Of a DNA stretch of 23,261 nucleotides, positions 3,232-22,729 are shown one piece after another. The stretch covers positions 1-23,261 of the IMG/VR virus record IMGVR_UViG_3300021437_000085; one strand, given 5' to 3'. The position numbers and the translations under genes are program-made. The number at the start of each line of letters is the position of its first letter. The first letter of the stretch is position 1. The notes under the pieces are model-generated. The model was given only the letters and a program-made list of their open reading frames with translations, had not been told where the DNA came from and made no database searches. Source of the stretch: a virus.

Positions 3232-4485
3232 TTGCTAAAGTACAAACTTCGATATAAAAAGAACCCACACCAAAGAGAATTTCACGACGACGACGAATCG
3301 CGCTTTTTGCATTTGTCGACCGGCTTCGGAGGCGGAAAGACCTTCGGCCTTTGCATGAAGGCTTTAAAACTTCACCAATTAAACGCGCCCTTCTCCGGCG
3401 CAATCGTCGGCCCCGACTTTCAAGAACTAAAGAAAGACGTCATTCCCGAAATGGAAGCGATTCTTGACCGGAACAATATTCCCTATCAATACCACAAGAC
3501 GGAACACTGGTTTAAGTTTCCGTGGTCAAAAGGAAAGTTGTTTTTAGTTAGCGCCGACAAACCTATCCGTGGACCCAATTGGGCTTTTGCACTTATCAAC
3601 GAAGTGACGCTCATTCCGCTTGTGAAATATAAAGAAGTGATCGGTCGTGTGCGCGTGAAGGGCGCAAAGTTTCCACAAATTTGTAGCGTTGGAACTCCCG
3701 AGGGCTACGCCTCCGACTATTATGACTACATGATCGAAAACCCGCCGAAGGGCCTTCGAATTATTTATGGTTCAACGGACGACAACGCCGCAAACCTTCA
3801 CGAACTTTACTTGGAAAATTTAGAAGCAAGCTATGACCAAAAAATGGTCGAGGCGTATCGAAAAGGTTTGTGGGTCAACATGGCCGGAAATCTTTTCTAT
3901 TATTCCCACGACCCAAGAAAGAACTCCGACGCCACAATCAAGCGCGAAGAATTTGTTCAATACCATTGTTCAATGGACTTCAACGTTGACCCGTTTTGCG
4001 CGACCCTTTGGGGCTATGACGGTTTCAGTTTGTTTGGTGTTGAGTGCATAGAACTAAAAGGGGCGGAAGGCTATCGAACCGAAAACATGATTCAAGCCCT
4101 AAAAGCCCGCGGCTACGTTCCACAAAACACAATTATTTATCCGGACCCCGCGGGGAAAGCACGCTCGACGAAAGGCTTGCCCGACGTGACGATTCTCCGC
4201 AATGCGGGTTTTGAAGTCCGTGTGAAGTCCGCGGCGCCTACCTACCGGGGCCGTCAATTAAACGTCAACAACCTACTAGACAAGGGTCTCATAAAATATC
4301 ACCCGGAGCGTTGCAAAGGTCTTCGCAAAGACTTTGAAGCCGTGGAGCAAGATATTTTGACGCTTGAAAAGAAAAAGGACTCGCCGAACTTGACACACTT
4401 CAGCGACGGCCTAGACTATCTTTGCGATATATTGTTTCCTTTTAGTGGAAACGCAAAAGCGACTAGGGTCGAGAAAATCAGATAA
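3232..4485 (+). CDS. terL: Terminase large subunit
   Basis: The 417-aa product is the ATP-driven DNA packaging motor with a C-terminal headful/cos nuclease. The ATPase Walker A is GFGGGKT (31-37, Lys36). The Walker B strand is WAFALINE (117-124), where the usual Asp is Asn123 and Glu124 is catalytic. The RNase H-like nuclease shows MDFNVDP (D249 and D253), YPDPAG (D305) and HFSDGLDY (D392 and D395), all expected metal ligands. GAGGGGG lies 6 bases before TTG 3232. The length is usual for a phage large terminase with both domains. It precedes the portal gene, the normal order. The product acts on DNA concatemers at the portal vertex. Confidence 0.93.
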   Translation: MLKYKLRYKKNPHQREFHDDDESRFLHLSTGFGGGKTFGLCMKALKLHQLNAPFSGAIVGPDFQELKKDVIPEMEAILDRNNIPYQYHKTEHWFKFPWSKGKLFLVSADKPIRGPNWAFALINEVTLIPLVKYKEVIGRVRVKGAKFPQICSVGTPEGYASDYYDYMIENPPKGLRIIYGSTDDNAANLHELYLENLEASYDQKMVEAYRKGLWVNMAGNLFYYSHDPRKNSDATIKREEFVQYHCSMDFNVDPFCATLWGYDGFSLFGVECIELKGAEGYRTENMIQALKARGYVPQNTIIYPDPAGKARSTKGLPDVTILRNAGFEVRVKSAAPTYRGRQLNVNNLLDKGLIKYHPERCKGLRKDFEAVEQDILTLEKKKDSPNLTHFSDGLDYLCDILFPFSGNAKATRVEKIR

Positions 4486-7424: not shown

Positions 7425-8054
7425 ATGTCACAAGAAAACCAGAATCCGCCCGTTGACCCAATTGTGGAACCTTTAAACCCGCCCGCCGACCCCGACCAAG
7501 GTCAAGCCGCCGAGCGAATAAAGAAAGATTTGTTCAAGTACAAGTCGGAAGCGCAACAACTTCGCGAAGAAAACGAACGCTTGAAGCTTCAAACCCACAA
7601 AGAAAAAGAAGACTGGAAGACGGTCGCCGAACACCACGAAACAAAAGCAAAAGACATTGAATCGAAGTACACGAAACTTCAAAACGCCCTTGTGGACGAA
7701 AAGAAGTTTTCCGCCCTTCGTGCCGAAGCTTCAAAAGCGGGCATAAATGCGGCTTCAATTCCTGATTTAGAATTGCTTGACTTCCCGGAATTGCATGTTG
7801 AAACTACTTCCACGGGCAAGATTCTTGTCTCGGGTGCGGACGCCGCGGTTGCAAAACTTAAAACGCTTCGCCCACACTGGTTTACGAACGTTATTCCGAG
7901 CGTAAACTCGGCCACGCCGAACCTAGGCCGCCCGAATGGTTCCCTTGTGACCCTCGCCGACGTAAACGCCGCCGAAGCACAATGGTCAAAAACAAAGTCC
8001 GAATCGGACAAAAAAATATATTTCGAAACGATTCAAAAATTTAAAGCGCAATAA
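7425..8054 (+). CDS. Capsid scaffolding protein
   Basis: The 209-aa product has the make-up of a phage scaffold. There is a Pro/Asp-rich N-terminus (residues 5-27) and a long charged coiled coil (about 28-95, with EAQQLREENERLKLQTHKEK). A folded Leu-rich middle follows, then a basic, helical C-terminus (SESDKKIYFETIQKFKAQ) suited to binding the coat protein. Scaffold proteins guide procapsid assembly and then leave. It sits immediately before the major capsid gene, the expected position. The ribosome site is weak (AAGAAAG), and hairpins lie upstream. The assignment is from composition and order, as scaffold sequences diverge quickly. Confidence 0.78.
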   Translation: MSQENQNPPVDPIVEPLNPPADPDQGQAAERIKKDLFKYKSEAQQLREENERLKLQTHKEKEDWKTVAEHHETKAKDIESKYTKLQNALVDEKKFSALRAEASKAGINAASIPDLELLDFPELHVETTSTGKILVSGADAAVAKLKTLRPHWFTNVIPSVNSATPNLGRPNGSLVTLADVNAAEAQWSKTKSESDKKIYFETIQKFKAQ

Positions 8055-8059
8055 TGCGC

Positions 8060-8077
8060 AAAGGAGTTTTCTAAATG
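8060..8077 (+). promoter_or_regulatory. Strong ribosome site of major capsid gene
   Basis: AAAGGAG (8060-8066) is followed by TTTT and an ATG 9 bases on. The leader AAAGGAGTTTT recurs almost exactly at 14388 before the tail tube gene. Most genes here use GGGG instead. Confidence 0.8.
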
Positions 8078-8917
8078 GCTAACGCTTACATGGACACCGC
8101 AAACGAAGTTTCCGTCATTGTACCTCAACAATGGTCTAGCAAGTATTATGATTCTTTACTTGTTGACCTCCCTATGGCTTCTTTGATTTCTACAGACTAC
8201 GAAGGCGAAGTTTCAAACCTTGGTGATACTGTAAAAATCGCAACCGTTCCCGAATTCGCGGACGCTTCGGAACTTCCAGAAGCCGACGCAGCGGAAGCCG
8301 ACGGCGTGACTATCACTTCACAGTCACTTGTTATCAACAAGCGCATTGTGAAAGATTTCATTGTGACAAACAAAGCGTTGTTGCAATCAATTCCGTTTGT
8401 AGAAAAATTGAAAGAACTTGCGATCTATTCAATCCAAAAGAAAATTCAGGCTTTGATCTTGTCTTTGACAGTTCCAAGCGCGTCACCCGACCACACAATT
8501 GCGGCGGCAACTCCGGGTGTTATGGTTCTTGCGGACATTTTGGCTTTGAAAGAATTGCTCGACACGCAAAATGTTCCAATGGCCGACCGCCACATGGTTT
8601 TGGGCGCTGGACCACTAAACGACATTTTCGCGATCACAAACTTTACAAGTTCTGATTTCGTGGCGTCGGGTTCACCTATCACTTCGGGCGACCTTCCCGC
8701 ACAACTTGTGGGCTTCATGCCACACTTCACAAACGCGGTCGGTTCGACTGTTTACGCGTTCCACAAATCTTATTTCACAATGGCTTCTCAACAAGGAATG
8801 GCCGTTAACGAATACGACTTGGGCGTTGAAGGCCGTCGTGCAAAGCGCGTAAATTGCGACACCCTAATCGGTATGAAGCAATTGAGCGACAAGCGCGTTG
8901 CGACTCTCACAGTATAA
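8075..8917 (+). CDS. Major capsid protein (HK97 fold)
   Basis: The 280-aa product fits HK97-fold coat proteins of the P22/N4-gp56 kind. An N-terminal arm (MANAYMDTANEVSVIVPQQW) is followed by LVDLPMASLI, EGEVSNLGDTVKIATVPE, a helical spine (IPFVEKLKELAIYSIQKKIQ) and the A-domain. Position after the scaffold, the best ribosome site in the region, and two terminators downstream all fit the most abundant virion protein. Its codon use is a little unlike neighbours, with two CAG Gln codons among eleven where others use CAA almost only. No prohead protease gene is seen nearby. Confidence 0.88.
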   Translation: MANAYMDTANEVSVIVPQQWSSKYYDSLLVDLPMASLISTDYEGEVSNLGDTVKIATVPEFADASELPEADAAEADGVTITSQSLVINKRIVKDFIVTNKALLQSIPFVEKLKELAIYSIQKKIQALILSLTVPSASPDHTIAAATPGVMVLADILALKELLDTQNVPMADRHMVLGAGPLNDIFAITNFTSSDFVASGSPITSGDLPAQLVGFMPHFTNAVGSTVYAFHKSYFTMASQQGMAVNEYDLGVEGRRAKRVNCDTLIGMKQLSDKRVATLTV

Positions 8918-10202: not shown

Positions 10203-11399
10203 ATGTCTCACACGACGCCGGAAACTGAAATTGCCAACGTCGGCGGGGACACCGCCGACATTCGCGATGTGACGGGGAATTCCGTCAATCAAACCGATGC
10301 TTATTCTCCGAGCGCGCCCTATACGGCAATCGGACGCGCGGCCCCTACGGTTGACGGCGACGGAAATATGCTTATTCGTGGCGACGTATTGACCGACGAA
10401 GGACAATTTCGCGACGATTTTTCGGGAACATCTTTGTCGGTCGACTGGACTACGGCAACAAGTTTGACGGGCGCGATTGCGGTCGCAAACTCCCTTTTGA
10501 CTTTGTCTTCCGGGGCCACAAACGGCGCAAAAGCGGAAGTCATGCGTCCCGGCGACTACGGCCCCTTAACGTACCTCGGACTTCTTTCGATTTCTCAGCG
10601 TGTTGCAAACCAAACAATATTTTTCGGACTTCGCAACGACGCCACGGGAACAAATATTGTGGCCGAATTTCGCTTTTCAGGAACGGTCAACACGGCGGCG
10701 ACATGCGTATCAAGTTCTTTTGGGACTATCGCCGATACAGACACAACACAAATCACTTTGCCAAACGGTTTGACGACTGCTTCGTCTTTAAAATATCAAA
10801 TTGACGTTCAACCCGACCGTGTTTCCTTTTTTATTGAAGATATTCTAGTCGCAACTCACGTTCGCCACATGCCCGGGCCCTACCAACCGCTTATGGTCTA
10901 CCAAGGAATAAAGAACACGGCGGCGGCCTCGAATACTTCGGTCGCGATCGACTTTGTGTATTTTCCGAATTATAACACTTTGTCGATCACAAATCCTTTT
11001 GAATCGTCGCCGGTCAACATTATATCAAAAGAAGACTCGCATTATATTTCGGGTGTCTTAACGTCATCGGCGACAACGGCAAATCAAACGATTTTAAGTT
11101 ATACAGTTCCGGCGGGGAAAGTTGCTTATATCGTCGGTTTCATGCTTAGTTCCACGAACGTGGACGCAACCGTCGCAAAAATAGGGGTGAATTCAGTCAC
11201 GACCGAACCGGTCGCCCCGGGGACCGTTGACTCTTCTATTTTTCGGGCGTTTTTTATGGCCGGGAAGACAAATTTTAGCGACTCGTTTTTTTCCGCCCGA
11301 AGAATTGCACGCGGGGGCGATATATTGCTTTTTACGGTCACACCGGCGGCGGCGGGCTCGACGTTGTGGCGCGCGACCATTGATTTAATTTTAAGATAG
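10203..11399 (+). CDS. Large ConA-like jelly-roll fibre or adhesin
   Basis: The 398-aa product has three parts. Residues 1-70 hold Ala/Asp/Gly-rich text and the motif VDGDGNMLIRGDVLTDEGQF. Residues about 72-255 begin RDDFSGTSLSVDW and contain LLTLSSG, LGLLSISQR and VSFFIEDILVATH, the layout of a concanavalin/LamG jelly-roll domain that often binds glycans. Residues about 275-398 form a beta domain starting ILSYTVPAGKVAYIVGFML, common in phage adhesins. It starts 3 bases after the previous stop with no strong site, implying coupling. Position between capsid and connector suggests a head fibre; a tail-associated adhesin is the alternative. Confidence 0.62.
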   Translation: MSHTTPETEIANVGGDTADIRDVTGNSVNQTDAYSPSAPYTAIGRAAPTVDGDGNMLIRGDVLTDEGQFRDDFSGTSLSVDWTTATSLTGAIAVANSLLTLSSGATNGAKAEVMRPGDYGPLTYLGLLSISQRVANQTIFFGLRNDATGTNIVAEFRFSGTVNTAATCVSSSFGTIADTDTTQITLPNGLTTASSLKYQIDVQPDRVSFFIEDILVATHVRHMPGPYQPLMVYQGIKNTAAASNTSVAIDFVYFPNYNTLSITNPFESSPVNIISKEDSHYISGVLTSSATTANQTILSYTVPAGKVAYIVGFMLSSTNVDATVAKIGVNSVTTEPVAPGTVDSSIFRAFFMAGKTNFSDSFFSARRIARGGDILLFTVTPAAAGSTLWRATIDLILR

Positions 11400-11410: not shown

Positions 11411-12283
11411 ATGAAAAAGGCTTTTAAAACCTATGATCACGCTCCCGCAAACCAAACGCCTCGCGGAATTCCGCTCGACTGGCCGTGGCTTGTTCAAGAC
11501 ATAGACGATCACGACGAAGCGTCTTTTGCGGACGCCGGTTTTATTGTTTTGTGGCCGGAAGAATATGACGACTATAAGTTTCAACGACAAGAATCATACG
11601 ATTTTTGGGCGGCAACTTATAACGCCGAAATTCAAGCCCAAGGTCTAAGAGTTTCCGACCTACTAGACGAAAGTTTTAAGACCCTCCACCCCTCAAAAAT
11701 TGATTTCACTATGCACTTAAAACCAAACATTGCGCTTCTAAAAAAAGTGACAATGTTAGCAAATGGCCGACCGAGCGTTGCAAAATATTATTTCGCTTCG
11801 ATTGCGCCCGATAATCTTATTTGTGAAATCGCTTTTGAATTTGATACGAATTCACTCGGTTTCATGACCGCCCGTCGTGAGAAATTAGCCTACTATAGAA
11901 ACGACGGAACCCGCGGCGATCAATACTTGATTCATGAAAGACACTATGATTTCGGAATTTCATTCGAGGCGTGCGAGTCTTTACAAGAACGCGTTCAAGC
12001 GCGCACGAATATTTTTCAAGAAATTAAAATGGTCGTGAATGGCTTTTTGATTCAATATTTTGTGGCCCAAGGAAACGGACTCGCTACCGCGTCGGGCCTC
12101 GCGCTCGCGCAAGGCAAGGCGTTGACCACAAAATACCGGTTTGACATTGACGACTTCGTTCAACTCGCAACCCCTGATTTCAAAAATAATGTTTTGGCCG
12201 ACACCGAATTTGCATGGCTTGACGCGAATATCGCGGCGGGCGTGACCGTTCGACAATATATTGCCGGGAAACTTTCATACTAA
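11411..12283 (+). CDS. Unknown 290-aa late protein
   Basis: I do not recognise this product. Residues 1-60 are rich in Trp, Asp and Glu (GIPLDWPWLVQDIDDHDEAS, FIVLWPEEYDDYKFQ). The middle is mixed helix and strand (IDFTMHLKPNIALLKKVTML, LICEIAFEFDTNSLGFMTAR). A helical section (about 190-225, including VQARTNIFQEIKMVVNGFLI) precedes an acidic, beta-like end. No signal peptide, membrane segment or catalytic motif stands out. AGGA overlaps the previous stop, and the next gene follows after AAGGGGGG. Its place between the adhesin and the papain-like gene suggests an accessory virion or assembly protein. Confidence 0.6.
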   Translation: MKKAFKTYDHAPANQTPRGIPLDWPWLVQDIDDHDEASFADAGFIVLWPEEYDDYKFQRQESYDFWAATYNAEIQAQGLRVSDLLDESFKTLHPSKIDFTMHLKPNIALLKKVTMLANGRPSVAKYYFASIAPDNLICEIAFEFDTNSLGFMTARREKLAYYRNDGTRGDQYLIHERHYDFGISFEACESLQERVQARTNIFQEIKMVVNGFLIQYFVAQGNGLATASGLALAQGKALTTKYRFDIDDFVQLATPDFKNNVLADTEFAWLDANIAAGVTVRQYIAGKLSY

Positions 12284-12293
12284 GGGGGGCTTT

Positions 12294-12965
12294 ATGCTTC
12301 AAAAGGTTGTGGAGTTTATAAGTTTCAAAATCGTTTCGCCCTTTAATTGGGCGCGTTTGAAGTTTCTTTTCACCGGGCGCGCCTATGACTTAACACCGGA
12401 AGACCGCGAACACGCGCGCGGCCTTATGAAAATTTGTCCGTGTGTTTGGGTTTCAAGACGTGAAACCCATTTGACTACATATTTTATCGGCTTCTCAGAC
12501 TTCGCCCTTATGTCGTTCGTTTGGATAAAATCAGGATTCAAAGGTCCTCGACCAAAGTTTGGGTTTTATTCGCACGCCTTTATAAACCTAGACGAAAACG
12601 AAATCGTGGAGGCCGTCGCAAAAGGCGTTCAAAAGCACCTATTCGACGACGTGTTCGATTGTGACGCTATCGCCGCCCTAAGACCGCGGGCCCTCACAAA
12701 CGCTGAATGGATAGCTTTAGGACCACAAATCCGGGAAGGTTTGTCGGAACAAATCGGAAAGAAATATGACGCGTTGTTTGATATTTCCGACGATTCGCGG
12801 GTTTCGTGCATTGAGTGCGTCCGAGTAGTCCTAAAAAAAGAAGTCCCCCTTTATGACTTGAAATTTAAAAACTTTGAAGCAATGATTTCAAACTATAAGA
12901 ACGTCACGCCGCAAATGCTTATTGATTCGGGTGACTTCGAAATTGTGTGGGAAGTGAAAAAATGA
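12294..12965 (+). CDS. Permuted papain-fold enzyme (YiiX/NlpC-P60-like)
   Basis: The 223-aa product looks like a circularly permuted NlpC/P60 (YiiX-type) papain-fold enzyme. The catalytic His would be H94 in GFYSHAFINL, followed by a Val/Glu-rich strand (EIVEAVAKGVQ). ALRPRALTNAEW (128-139) and GKKYDALFDI (155-164) match segments between His and Cys. The catalytic Cys would be C172 in VSCIECVRV, matching the C-x-E pattern. Relatives cut amide bonds in peptidoglycan or lipid substrates. The ATG at 12294 follows AAGGGGGG. The gene overlaps the connector by 4 bases. Possible roles are cell-wall entry, or less likely capsid-protein processing. Direct evidence is only the motif set. Confidence 0.66.
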   Translation: MLQKVVEFISFKIVSPFNWARLKFLFTGRAYDLTPEDREHARGLMKICPCVWVSRRETHLTTYFIGFSDFALMSFVWIKSGFKGPRPKFGFYSHAFINLDENEIVEAVAKGVQKHLFDDVFDCDAIAALRPRALTNAEWIALGPQIREGLSEQIGKKYDALFDISDDSRVSCIECVRVVLKKEVPLYDLKFKNFEAMISNYKNVTPQMLIDSGDFEIVWEVKK

Positions 12966-13960
12966 TTATTCCAATTTTAGCAACCGAAAAAGAAGTTCAA
13001 ATCGGCGACCTTATTCGGTTTGACGCTTCAAAATCCATTCAAGTAAAAGGTTCGCTCGGGTCTATTAACTCCGTTTTGATTCAACCGGGGGAAATAGCCG
13101 ACGGAATTCAAGTTTTCAACGCCTCCAATAAAAATTGGTTTCTGGACTACGCTTTCAACACCTATGCTTTTGATATAAATGAAAACACTTCGCGCATTGA
13201 TTTTGAAGTGAACGGGGTTTTGTACTCGACGAACGTCTCGAATGGCACTTATTCGCTTGAAGATTTGCTCGCCGACATGAAATATAACATTGAGGCGACC
13301 GCCCCTTCCTTAACGGTGCAATTTGTGGTAGACGAATTGAATCGTATCACAACGACACCTTCCTTGCCTTTGAAGTTTCTACCCAATGCGACTTCAAAAG
13401 GTCTTTTGCGTCACTTAGGGTTTAAGAGTGATTCTTTAATCGGAAACCCCGTCGAATATGGGTTGCGAAATGTTTGGTTGATTGTTAGTTCCGGAGCGGA
13501 GTCGGCTTCTATTTTTCAGCAATTAAAAGTTTATACTCCCGAAGGTGACGCCCTTTTCAGTGAAGACGCGGACCTCGTATCCTTTGAAACTGAAATCATG
13601 AAATGGCTTCCACAAGGCCACGGGTCTTTTATTTATTTGCACCGACGCGCACAAAAGGAAATTCTCGACTGGATTGACCGCCAAGGCTATCGCGACAAGG
13701 ACCGAAACAAAATCACGAAACGCGCGTTTGTGGACAATTCCGACGTTCGATCATGGTCGACGGCTTTAGCTTTGCGCCTATTCTTTACAGAAGCCGGAAA
13801 CGCGTCGAATGATGTGTTTAAAGAAAAAGCAAAAGTTTACGAAAAAATGGAAATCGCGGCACGAAGCCGCGCGGTTCTAAGCCTAGACCTTGACGGCGAC
13901 AATAAAGCCGACGACCTAAAAGGCCCCGCTATAAGTTCCGGGAAGTTGTACCTTCGATGA
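12962..13960 (+). CDS. Head-tail connector with N-terminal beta domain
   Basis: The 332-aa product has two parts. Residues 1-160 are beta-rich: a PKD-like start (IRFDASKS), then RIDFEVNGVLYST, NGTYSLEDLLADM, LNRITTT and LRHLGFKSDS. Residues about 175-332 are helical: IMKWLPQGHGSFIYLHRRAQ, KEILDWIDRQGYRD, SWSTALALRLFF, DVFKEKAKVYEKM, then an acidic LDLDGDNKADD that could bind calcium. The helical half resembles head-tail adaptors of the HK97 gp6 kind. The ATG overlaps the previous stop (ATGA) and the next start overlaps its stop. The same beta-domain pattern appears in the distal tail protein at 18337. Confidence 0.62.
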   Translation: MIIPILATEKEVQIGDLIRFDASKSIQVKGSLGSINSVLIQPGEIADGIQVFNASNKNWFLDYAFNTYAFDINENTSRIDFEVNGVLYSTNVSNGTYSLEDLLADMKYNIEATAPSLTVQFVVDELNRITTTPSLPLKFLPNATSKGLLRHLGFKSDSLIGNPVEYGLRNVWLIVSSGAESASIFQQLKVYTPEGDALFSEDADLVSFETEIMKWLPQGHGSFIYLHRRAQKEILDWIDRQGYRDKDRNKITKRAFVDNSDVRSWSTALALRLFFTEAGNASNDVFKEKAKVYEKMEIAARSRAVLSLDLDGDNKADDLKGPAISSGKLYLR

Positions 13961-14388
13961 GTTTTGACACCCTTCGCCCCTATTTTCAAAGCGTCATGGC
14001 AACCGTTGACCCCGATTTAAGGGAATGGGAAGACGCTTTCAACATTGAAAACATTCCGGCCACAATTCTAGACAAATCGTGGCATATTGAGTTTGGGTCA
14101 ATGGTCTACGCGGCCACAACTCACAATTCGTGCTTTCACTTTGCGTGCCCGGTTCTTTTGCAAGTCATGGTCGCGGGAAACCGAAGCCCAAAAGAAGCCA
14201 TTGACACCGGCCACAAACTCGCGGACGCTATTCTTCGGGAAGCTTGCAAAGCGACAAATCGCTTGACGCAAGTTTCGATCAAAAACGTTTTGCCCGAATC
14301 GGTGAACGTGCGAAGCTTCGACCCCACAAACGACAATATTGTGGTTCTTGAAGTTCGTTTAAATTGCGAAATAATTTTACACTTATAA
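13957..14388 (+). CDS. Probable tail terminator protein
   Basis: The 143-aa product has the alpha/beta layout of tail terminators (gpU fold). It has an N-terminal helix (LRPYFQSVMATVDPDLREW), an edge strand (HIEFGSMVY) and core strands (FACPVLLQVMVAG). A helix (PKEAIDTGHKLADAILREAC) and final strands (IVVLEVRLNCEIIL) follow. Such proteins cap the tail tube and join it to the head. It starts with ATG overlapping the connector stop by 4 bases and lies directly before the tail tube gene, the usual position. The identification is from fold pattern and order. Confidence 0.68.
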   Translation: MSFDTLRPYFQSVMATVDPDLREWEDAFNIENIPATILDKSWHIEFGSMVYAATTHNSCFHFACPVLLQVMVAGNRSPKEAIDTGHKLADAILREACKATNRLTQVSIKNVLPESVNVRSFDPTNDNIVVLEVRLNCEIILHL

Positions 14389-14405
14389 AAGGAGTTTTAA
14401 AAATG
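14388..14405 (+). promoter_or_regulatory. Strong ribosome site of tail tube gene
   Basis: AAAGGAG (14388-14394) with TTTT and ATG at 14403 repeats the capsid gene leader at 8060 nearly base for base. It supports the ATG at 14403 over the in-frame ATG at 14364, which lies inside the terminator gene. Confidence 0.8.
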
Positions 14406-15335
14406 GGCGTTGAAAATATTAAGGTTGAAGCAATGGACGTTTTCTTCGGTGAAAACGTGACACAAGTCGAGAAAATCACTATTCGTTCAGGTATCGCAAA
14501 AGCATCGCTTGCGGGCGCTTATTTTCATATATATGCAATGGTGACCGGCGTTGTTCAAAAGCACGTTTTCTGGTTTAAAACCACAAACTCGGATTCGGCG
14601 CCAACGGGTGTTGACGATTCAACAAAACACCAAGTCGACATTTCTTCAAACGCAATCGACACGACTGCTGAAATCGCATCGGCTTTGCAAGTTGCGATCG
14701 ACGCAACCGCAATTTTGAACGCGGGTGTTTCAAATAACGTTGTCACCGTTGAGCAACTCGAAGTCGGCTATGTCCCAAGCGCACACGACGCTAAAAATCC
14801 GGGAAAAGTGACAAACTTCGGTTTTGAAATTGTCGAACAAGGCGACACCGAAGACAATTTAGGTTGCATCGAAGGTGAAATCGCGGTTTCTTTCGAAGAA
14901 AGTTTCCTTGACGTTCAATGCCACGCCGAAGGCGTGACTCCGGTTGCTCAAATTAAGAACGGCGTTTCTAAAGTTGAAGTGACTTTGAACCTTGAAGAAA
15001 CCAACGAAGAAAAGCTTAAGAAAATGTTTGTGAAAACGGGCGGTTCTTATGTTCCGGACAACGGAACCGAAATTTACGGAATGGGAACTTTCAAGAATTT
15101 CGAAAACATGTTCAAATATGCAACAAAACTTCGTCTTCACCCAATTCGTCTACTTTCGGGCGATTTGTCGGAGGACTTCACGTTTCACAAAGCGTTGCCA
15201 AACTTGAAGGGTTTGACGTTCTCGGGGACAAAAGTTTTGACTTTGCCCGTGACTTTTAAAGTCTACCCGGCGGACGGCGTTGATTCTCGAATCAACTACT
15301 TTTCAATCGGTGACGCAAGTCAATCAATCGCATAA
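14403..15335 (+). CDS. Major tail tube protein
   Basis: The 310-aa product has an N-terminal tube-like start (MGVENIKVEAMDVFFGENVT) and a beta-rich region (KHVFWFKTTNSDS, TTAEIASALQVAIDA). The C-terminal half is typical of tail tube proteins (VSKVEVTLNLEETNEEKL, LRLHPIRLLSGD, TGT-like KVLTLPVTFKVYPADG). The middle segment at about 45-125 looks like an inserted beta domain. A canonical AAAGGAG site and terminator at 15348 mark it as highly expressed. It is followed by chaperones and tape measure, as expected for a siphovirus. No sheath gene precedes it. Confidence 0.82.
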   Translation: MGVENIKVEAMDVFFGENVTQVEKITIRSGIAKASLAGAYFHIYAMVTGVVQKHVFWFKTTNSDSAPTGVDDSTKHQVDISSNAIDTTAEIASALQVAIDATAILNAGVSNNVVTVEQLEVGYVPSAHDAKNPGKVTNFGFEIVEQGDTEDNLGCIEGEIAVSFEESFLDVQCHAEGVTPVAQIKNGVSKVEVTLNLEETNEEKLKKMFVKTGGSYVPDNGTEIYGMGTFKNFENMFKYATKLRLHPIRLLSGDLSEDFTFHKALPNLKGLTFSGTKVLTLPVTFKVYPADGVDSRINYFSIGDASQSIA

Positions 15336-22212: not shown

Positions 22213-22446
22213 ATGTCAGCGTTCGGGGCGGCAATCGGTCGGTATGTTTTGAATTTCGTTTTAAAATATATTTTGAACTACGTTCACAAAGGCGTTCTTT
22301 ACTTGATCGCCGCTGCCGAACGAAACATTGAAAACAAAAAGCAAGACAAGAAAGACGCGGAACAAATAGACAAAACAAGGGAAGCCGTAAAAAATGGAAC
22401 CGACGAAGACATTGAAAAAGAAACTGAGAAAATGCTTAACGGTTAG
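22213..22446 (+). CDS. Membrane-associated protein, i-spanin candidate
   Basis: The 77-aa product has an N-terminal hydrophobic or amphipathic stretch (about 4-34, YVLNFVLKYILNYVH). A charged coil (RNIENKKQDKKDAEQIDKTR and on) ends at acidic EKETEKMLNG. GGGG is 7 bases before ATG 22213, so this start is preferred to the in-frame ATG at 22192. The lipoprotein gene overlaps its 3' end by 53 bases in the +1 frame, the arrangement of Rz/Rz1 spanin genes. The membrane segment carries several Lys, His and Asn residues, so it is not a clean single span; the spanin call is inference. Confidence 0.55.
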   Translation: MSAFGAAIGRYVLNFVLKYILNYVHKGVLYLIAAAERNIENKKQDKKDAEQIDKTREAVKNGTDEDIEKETEKMLNG

Positions 22447-22729
22447 CACGTCCCTTTTGTTGTGTGCGTGTTCGTGCTTTCCGACTGAAAAAGAACTCGA
22501 CGTTCGACCTAAACAAATCCTTCAACGTTTAGGAAAATGTAAACAATACAAAATTGTGGATTTCAAAACTTTTAAATTTGAGTTTGAAAAAGACCTTCCC
22601 CTTGATCAATGCCTTGTCGACGGCTTTTTTGTATTGACCGACGACGAAGTTGTGGCCCTTAGAAAAGCCGCGAACAAAACGCGCGATTGTGTCGAGAAGA
22701 AATGTCACGGGGGAAACAATGGCAATTGA
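22394..22729 (+). CDS. Lipoprotein, o-spanin candidate
   Basis: The 111-aa product starts with a basic n-region (KKKLRK), a hydrophobic core and a lipobox, LCAC, with C26 as the likely lipidated Cys. The mature part has further Cys (28, 49, 73, 99, 104) that could form disulfides and a conserved-looking LPLDQCLVDGFFVLTDDE. A signal peptide with lipobox means an outer-membrane lipoprotein in a Gram-negative host. It overlaps the coil protein at 22213, as Rz1 overlaps Rz, so an outer spanin is the best guess. It ends 11 bases inside the tail-hub gene. AGGGAAG is the ribosome site. Confidence 0.68.
   Translation: MEPTKTLKKKLRKCLTVSTSLLLCACSCFPTEKELDVRPKQILQRLGKCKQYKIVDFKTFKFEFEKDLPLDQCLVDGFFVLTDDEVVALRKAANKTRDCVEKKCHGGNNGN

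Follow-up and report, generated by a model that had tools for sequence, protein, structure and literature searches.

The window analysed here is the whole 23,261-nucleotide stretch of viral DNA from IMG/VR record IMGVR_UViG_3300021437_000085, and it carries, between its capsid gene and a putative head-tail connector gene, a reading frame whose product recalls permuted papain-fold enzymes. What does this gene encode, how constant is its place among related phages, and what might such an enzyme do there? An earlier reading made from the sequence only had pictured an amidase-like enzyme that could serve entry, lysis or capsid maturation.

Family assignment and predicted active site

As read from the window, the gene opens with an ATG at 12294, ends with a stop codon at 12963-12965 and encodes a 223-aa product. 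Its features are as follows.

12284..12289, + strand: GGGGGG purine run read directly from the sequence, candidate ribosome-binding site
12294..12965, + strand: YiiX/C92-type permuted NlpC/P60 gene, 223 aa (ORF, Pfam, profile and structural alignment to 2if6)
12573..12575, + strand: H94 codon, equivalent to YiiX His49 (alignment to 2if6; invariant in 8 sequences)
12609..12611, + strand: E106 codon, equivalent to YiiX Glu64, predicted third triad residue (alignment to 2if6; 8-sequence invariance; PMC3142127)
12765..12767, + strand: Y158 codon, in GKKYD, equivalent to YiiX Tyr115 (alignment to 2if6; 8-sequence invariance; PMC3142127)
12807..12809, + strand: C172 codon, in SCIEC, equivalent to YiiX Cys128, predicted nucleophile (alignment to 2if6; 8-sequence invariance; PMC3142127)

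The GGGGGG run ends four bases 5′ of the ATG, and at the other end of the gene the TGA stop shares bases with the start codon of the following gene (ATGA at 12962-12965). Given this overlap and the close packing of the two genes, the YiiX-like gene and the connector gene are probably co-translated. The motifs singled out by the sequence-only reading, H94 (FYSHAF) followed by C172 (SCIEC) with ALRP (residues 128-131) and GKKYD (residues 155-159) between them, are all present in the product.

Comparison with Pfam yielded a match of the window protein to Peptidase_C92 (PF05708, YaeF/YiiX) at E 8.8e-4 and 19.8 bits, below the curated cut-off of 27. This cut-off was passed by the relatives from L006 (E 2.1e-9, 38.1 bits) and L010 (E 2.3e-16, 60.7 bits); Pfam returned no Peptidase_C92 match for the L008 and L027 proteins, and NCBIfam returned no match of any kind for the 223-aa window protein. 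Relatives of the protein were gathered from viral and genome contigs, and a profile built from seven sequences matched Escherichia coli YiiX (2if6) at E 2.7e-5. Counting along this profile alignment, H94, E106, Y158 and C172 fall on 2if6 chain positions 33, 48, 99 and 112, which upon addition of 16 become His49, Glu64, Tyr115 and Cys128, the catalytic residues of YiiX (PMC3142127). The order expected of a permuted enzyme is thereby found, with the His (H94) ahead of the catalytic Cys (C172) near the C-terminus, and both the third polar residue of the family (Glu, here E106) and its signature Tyr (Y158) are in place. Judging from the alignment to YiiX, the four residues would lie close together in space.

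Across eight aligned sequences, some rows of which share 25-37% identity, 14 columns are invariant and include H94, E106, Y158 and C172; the conservation of H94 and C172 in homologs, on which the sequence-only reading depended, is thus borne out in 8/8 sequences. Orthologs at 48-55% identity occur in four other phage genomes. In the L002/L004 pair, synonymous change far exceeded non-synonymous change (pS 0.82 versus pN 0.14), which indicates purifying selection on the gene. From phage to phage, it has diverged about as much as the connector gene.

An AlphaFold2 model built with seven sequences (pLDDT 81.3, pTM 0.79) superseded a poor earlier model from four sequences (pLDDT 66). By structural alignment, it superimposed on 2if6 with a Z score of 15.0 (rmsd 2.2, 148 residues) and on Bacillus cereus 3kw0 with a Z score of 13.3 (rmsd 2.9, 157 residues), and reached Z scores of about 8 with H-REV107, AdPLA and HRASLS2. 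A Foldseek search of the PDB with the model returned no significant match, 2if6 included, and a Foldseek search of viral models returned three, one of them named as C92 family. The predicted model places a hydrophobic helix (residues 60-79) ahead of the His strand, an arrangement that would suit a hydrophobic S1 pocket. Simple scales revealed neither a clear membrane span (hydropathy) nor a marked N-terminal amphipathic helix in the 223-aa product; no signal peptide was evident by reading, and Pfam matched no wall-binding domain. The permuted papain fold anticipated by the sequence-only reading is supported both by the profile match and by the model, and on this sequence and model evidence the window product is an intact YiiX-family (Peptidase_C92) permuted NlpC/P60 protein with a complete predicted active site.

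A variable slot between capsid and connector genes

Searches anchored on the capsid and connector alignments yielded additional loci, all loci were scanned with profiles, and the genes from scaffold to tail tube were clustered across loci. The setting of the YiiX-like gene in the window is as follows.

3232..4485, + strand: terminase large subunit (PHROGs phrog_2, E 4.9e-27)
7425..8054, + strand: putative scaffold gene (family F4), charged, coiled-coil-like, directly 5′ of the capsid gene and conserved in relatives
8075..8917, + strand: major capsid protein (PHROGs phrog_267, E 9.2e-16)
11411..12283, + strand: 290-aa gene immediately 5′ of the YiiX-like gene, by eye akin to the L002 and L004 genes in that position
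12962..13960, + strand: putative head-tail connector (family F1), 332 aa, named from gene order, with F2 and F3 always next
13957..14388, + strand: putative tail-completion gene (family F2), named from gene order
14397..15335, + strand: putative tail-tube gene (family F3), named from gene order

The connector, tail-completion and tail-tube genes had no library match, and their names rest on gene order. Between the capsid and connector genes sits a variable slot, almost empty in L028, L032 and L033 and elsewhere holding several fibre-like or unknown genes. Where the YiiX-like gene is present (the window, L002, L004, L008 and L027), it is the last gene before the connector; in a distant phage whose capsid protein is 33% identical (L010), the equivalent position is taken by a C92 gene of more canonical type. 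A dedicated partner gene was considered and rejected, the upstream neighbour varying among L002/L004, L008/L027, L010 and L006. The 290-aa upstream gene of the window had no match in Pfam or PHROGs, and no counterpart of it was found in L008 or L027.

The profile of the YiiX-like gene matched nothing on the contigs that hold L022, L028, L029, L032, L033, L047 and L048, records that are linear and may be fragments. In the capsid tree, gene-less L022 pairs with the carrier L004 (support 100/97) within a larger set of carriers. Such nesting points to loss or repeated gain of the gene, which is an optional cargo of the variable slot, with the proviso that the linear gene-less records could be incomplete.

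Signal-peptide-like starts (e.g. MKYFLLSFLFSLSLSA) were noted in slot genes standing 5′ of the YiiX-like gene (L008:3806-5551, L008:5553-5987, L027:13247-14809, L027:14814-15257 and L002:265-2526); such starts are unusual in putative virion fibre genes. The window gene at 10203-11399 belongs to the same family as these slot genes and is without such a start. The starts in L008 and L027 suggest that not all slot genes encode virion parts. The pre-connector slot of a distant relative (L048:8396-10004) is occupied by small genes that are membrane-protein-like and lipoprotein-like rather than fibre-like. In the 104 kb phage contig L006, whose setting differs from that of the siphophage-like contigs, the YiiX-like gene (L006:6619-7761) comes after a pair of small genes that look alike and a run of fibre-like genes. 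Near its end, the window also carries a 111-aa lipoprotein-like gene (22394-22726); in G001 and G012, genes resembling it come before that of a large tail protein.

Candidate functions

Permuted members of the superfamily that have been studied have hydrophobic S1 pockets, and a fatty acid was found bound in YiiX (PMC3142127), whose own S1 site is narrow, hydrophobic and was judged unsuited to peptide (PMC3142127). Several studied permuted enzymes act on lipids, Tox-Act1 and TseH having phospholipase activity (PMC12994826), and LnsA is involved in lipoprotein N-acylation (PMC7387801). By analogy, the probable targets of the YiiX-like protein are fatty-acid-bearing components of the bacterial envelope. 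As in YiiX, the nucleophile would be C172, with H94 to activate it and E106 to orient it, and Y158 would hold the substrate carbonyl. Because the permuted enzymes studied have hydrophobic, lipid-accepting sites, a fatty-acyl bond, whether in a membrane lipid, a lipoprotein or a lipoamino acid, would be a likelier target than a bond in peptidoglycan.

Since neither a signal peptide nor a membrane span is evident, the protein could reach its substrate by two routes: carried in the virion to act on the host envelope as the DNA enters, or working at the inner face of the membrane late in infection. The first is slightly preferred because neighbours in the variable slot resemble fibre or adhesin genes. 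The protein may thus have a role in entry, one of the three suggested at the outset. Our overall proposal, to which we give a probability of roughly 0.4, is that of an acyl-directed YiiX-type enzyme encoded as an optional late cargo, borne by the virion and acting on the host envelope at DNA entry. A more specific version can be modelled on PLA2G16, a related host enzyme that aids delivery of enterovirus genomes (PMC6639302): a virion-borne acyl hydrolase or acyltransferase located by the connector would, by working on membrane lipids or lipoproteins, help the DNA through the inner membrane. This elaboration is speculative, and we regard it as improbable.

The same route analysis leaves room for a late enzyme that stays out of the virion and, acting within the infected cell, modifies its lipids or lipoproteins so as to time lysis or keep other phages out. 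The absence of a clear membrane span and of an evident signal peptide suits such an enzyme, as do the optional nature of the gene, its location in a variable slot and the presence, in the L048 slot, of genes resembling those for lipoproteins and membrane proteins. The immediate downstream neighbours, however, are putative virion genes, and the gene lies inside the head-tail block, away from the endolysin genes. We consider this reading doubtful, though one to be taken seriously.

A virion-carried peptidoglycan amidase or endopeptidase opening the cell wall at entry would fit the location among late genes and the wealth of cell-wall enzymes in the wider NlpC/P60 superfamily, and is the role that authors have assigned to permuted papain-like genes of phage tails (PMC9703825). 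The narrow, hydrophobic S1 site of YiiX, ill-suited to peptide (PMC3142127), the lipid substrates of studied permuted members (PMC12994826) and a length of 223 aa with no matched wall-binding domain nevertheless argue against it, making it rather unlikely. That the protein is a catalytically inactive structural relic of the fold might be read from the sub-cut-off Pfam C92 score of the window protein and the missing matches of L008 and L027, but invariance of the four catalytic residues across eight diverged sequences and purifying selection on the gene render this very improbable.

The sequence-only reading had seen no other peptidoglycan enzyme. This holds for the 23 kb fragment, where none was recognised among the ORFs scanned, but not for longer contigs of related phages, which bear endolysin-type genes. 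An Amidase_2 gene apart from the YiiX-like gene is found in G001 (L015:8784-9569) and in G006 (L055:6256-6678), a TIGR02594-type gene in G012 (L053:13180-13845; 65.8 bits versus a cut-off of 70.55), a gene combining PG_binding_1 with a TIGR02594-type domain in G003:C12 (L018:4236-5810), and a weak CHAP/TIGR02594-like gene in the gene-less G008 (L051:6039-6650). In G001, G012 and G006, the endolysin-type genes lie past the tail genes, farther than the window extends. The lack of a second peptidoglycan enzyme among the scanned ORFs might suggest that the YiiX-like protein is the endolysin or a required component of lysis. Because the four related carriers (G001, G006, G012 and G003:C12) have separate endolysin-type genes, it is probably not the lysis enzyme, and the lysis role is highly improbable; judged by kinship, the genome of the window phage being incomplete, it would not be the sole or main one.

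The remaining suggestion, a prohead protease for capsid maturation, draws on the fact that no such protease was recognised between the portal and capsid genes, and is the least credible of all: the YiiX-like gene does not occur wherever capsid and scaffold do, being missing from L022, L028, L032 and L033 (all linear records) while the order of scaffold, capsid and connector is the same, and since L022, a close relative amid carriers, retains all three, the protein is unlikely to be a required maturation protease.

Known relatives and distribution

E. coli YiiX (2if6) shares with the phage protein the permuted papain fold and the same His-Glu-Tyr-Cys order. The two are 18% identical, and the phage protein, the product of a phage late gene rather than of a host gene, is longer by about 40 residues at its N-terminus and has an insert ahead of the His strand. 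B. cereus BcPPNE (3kw0), with the same permuted fold and 15% identity, is a cellular protein that was crystallised with lysine (PMC3142127). LRAT/HRASLS proteins (H-REV107), Tox-Act1, LnsA and Lnb are likewise permuted NlpC/P60 proteins with roles on acyl lipids or lipoproteins (PMC7387801, PMC12994826); they represent separate permuted branches with a weaker structural match and other biology.

Among phages, YiiX-like or permuted papain-like amidase genes are annotated in the structural modules of Bacillus phages Izhevsk (PMC7685451) and Thrax4-5, the latter with a suggested role in degrading the wall during infection (PMC9703825). Alteromonas phage V22 is listed with a permuted papain-like amidase (PMC7289586). 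The genes of Izhevsk and Thrax4-5 are located among tail genes, whereas that of the window precedes the connector. The paper on phage CBA120 was set aside as a precedent, its domain being a canonical NlpC/P60. Our literature search found no assayed function for any phage YiiX-like protein. The sequence-only reading had called such a gene unusual for siphophage late clusters, which calls for qualification: phage YiiX-like genes are already known, having been reported earlier in tail modules (PMC7685451, PMC9703825), and within this lineage the place of the gene recurs. What is new is that the gene recurs just ahead of the connector, that it is optional, and that a group of uncultured phages carries it with no relative of the protein in the cultured-phage records searched. 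By tblastn, the window protein found no relatives in cultured phages and plasmids, nor did the L010, L006 or L003 proteins in cultured phages.

Peptidoglycan enzymes are the usual candidates for a part in phage DNA entry. Were the preferred reading of a virion-borne, lipid-acting enzyme true, these phages would allow lipid chemistry at this step to be put to the test. Even otherwise, closely related phages that either have or lack the gene in this position offer a clean natural comparison.

The L004 contig (JAKPDK010000186.1) is filed under a Hydrogenedentota genome. With the gene occurring in only 1/68 genomes of the phylum, Hydrogenedentota was not adopted as the host, and L004 may come from a phage whose contig was binned together with that genome.
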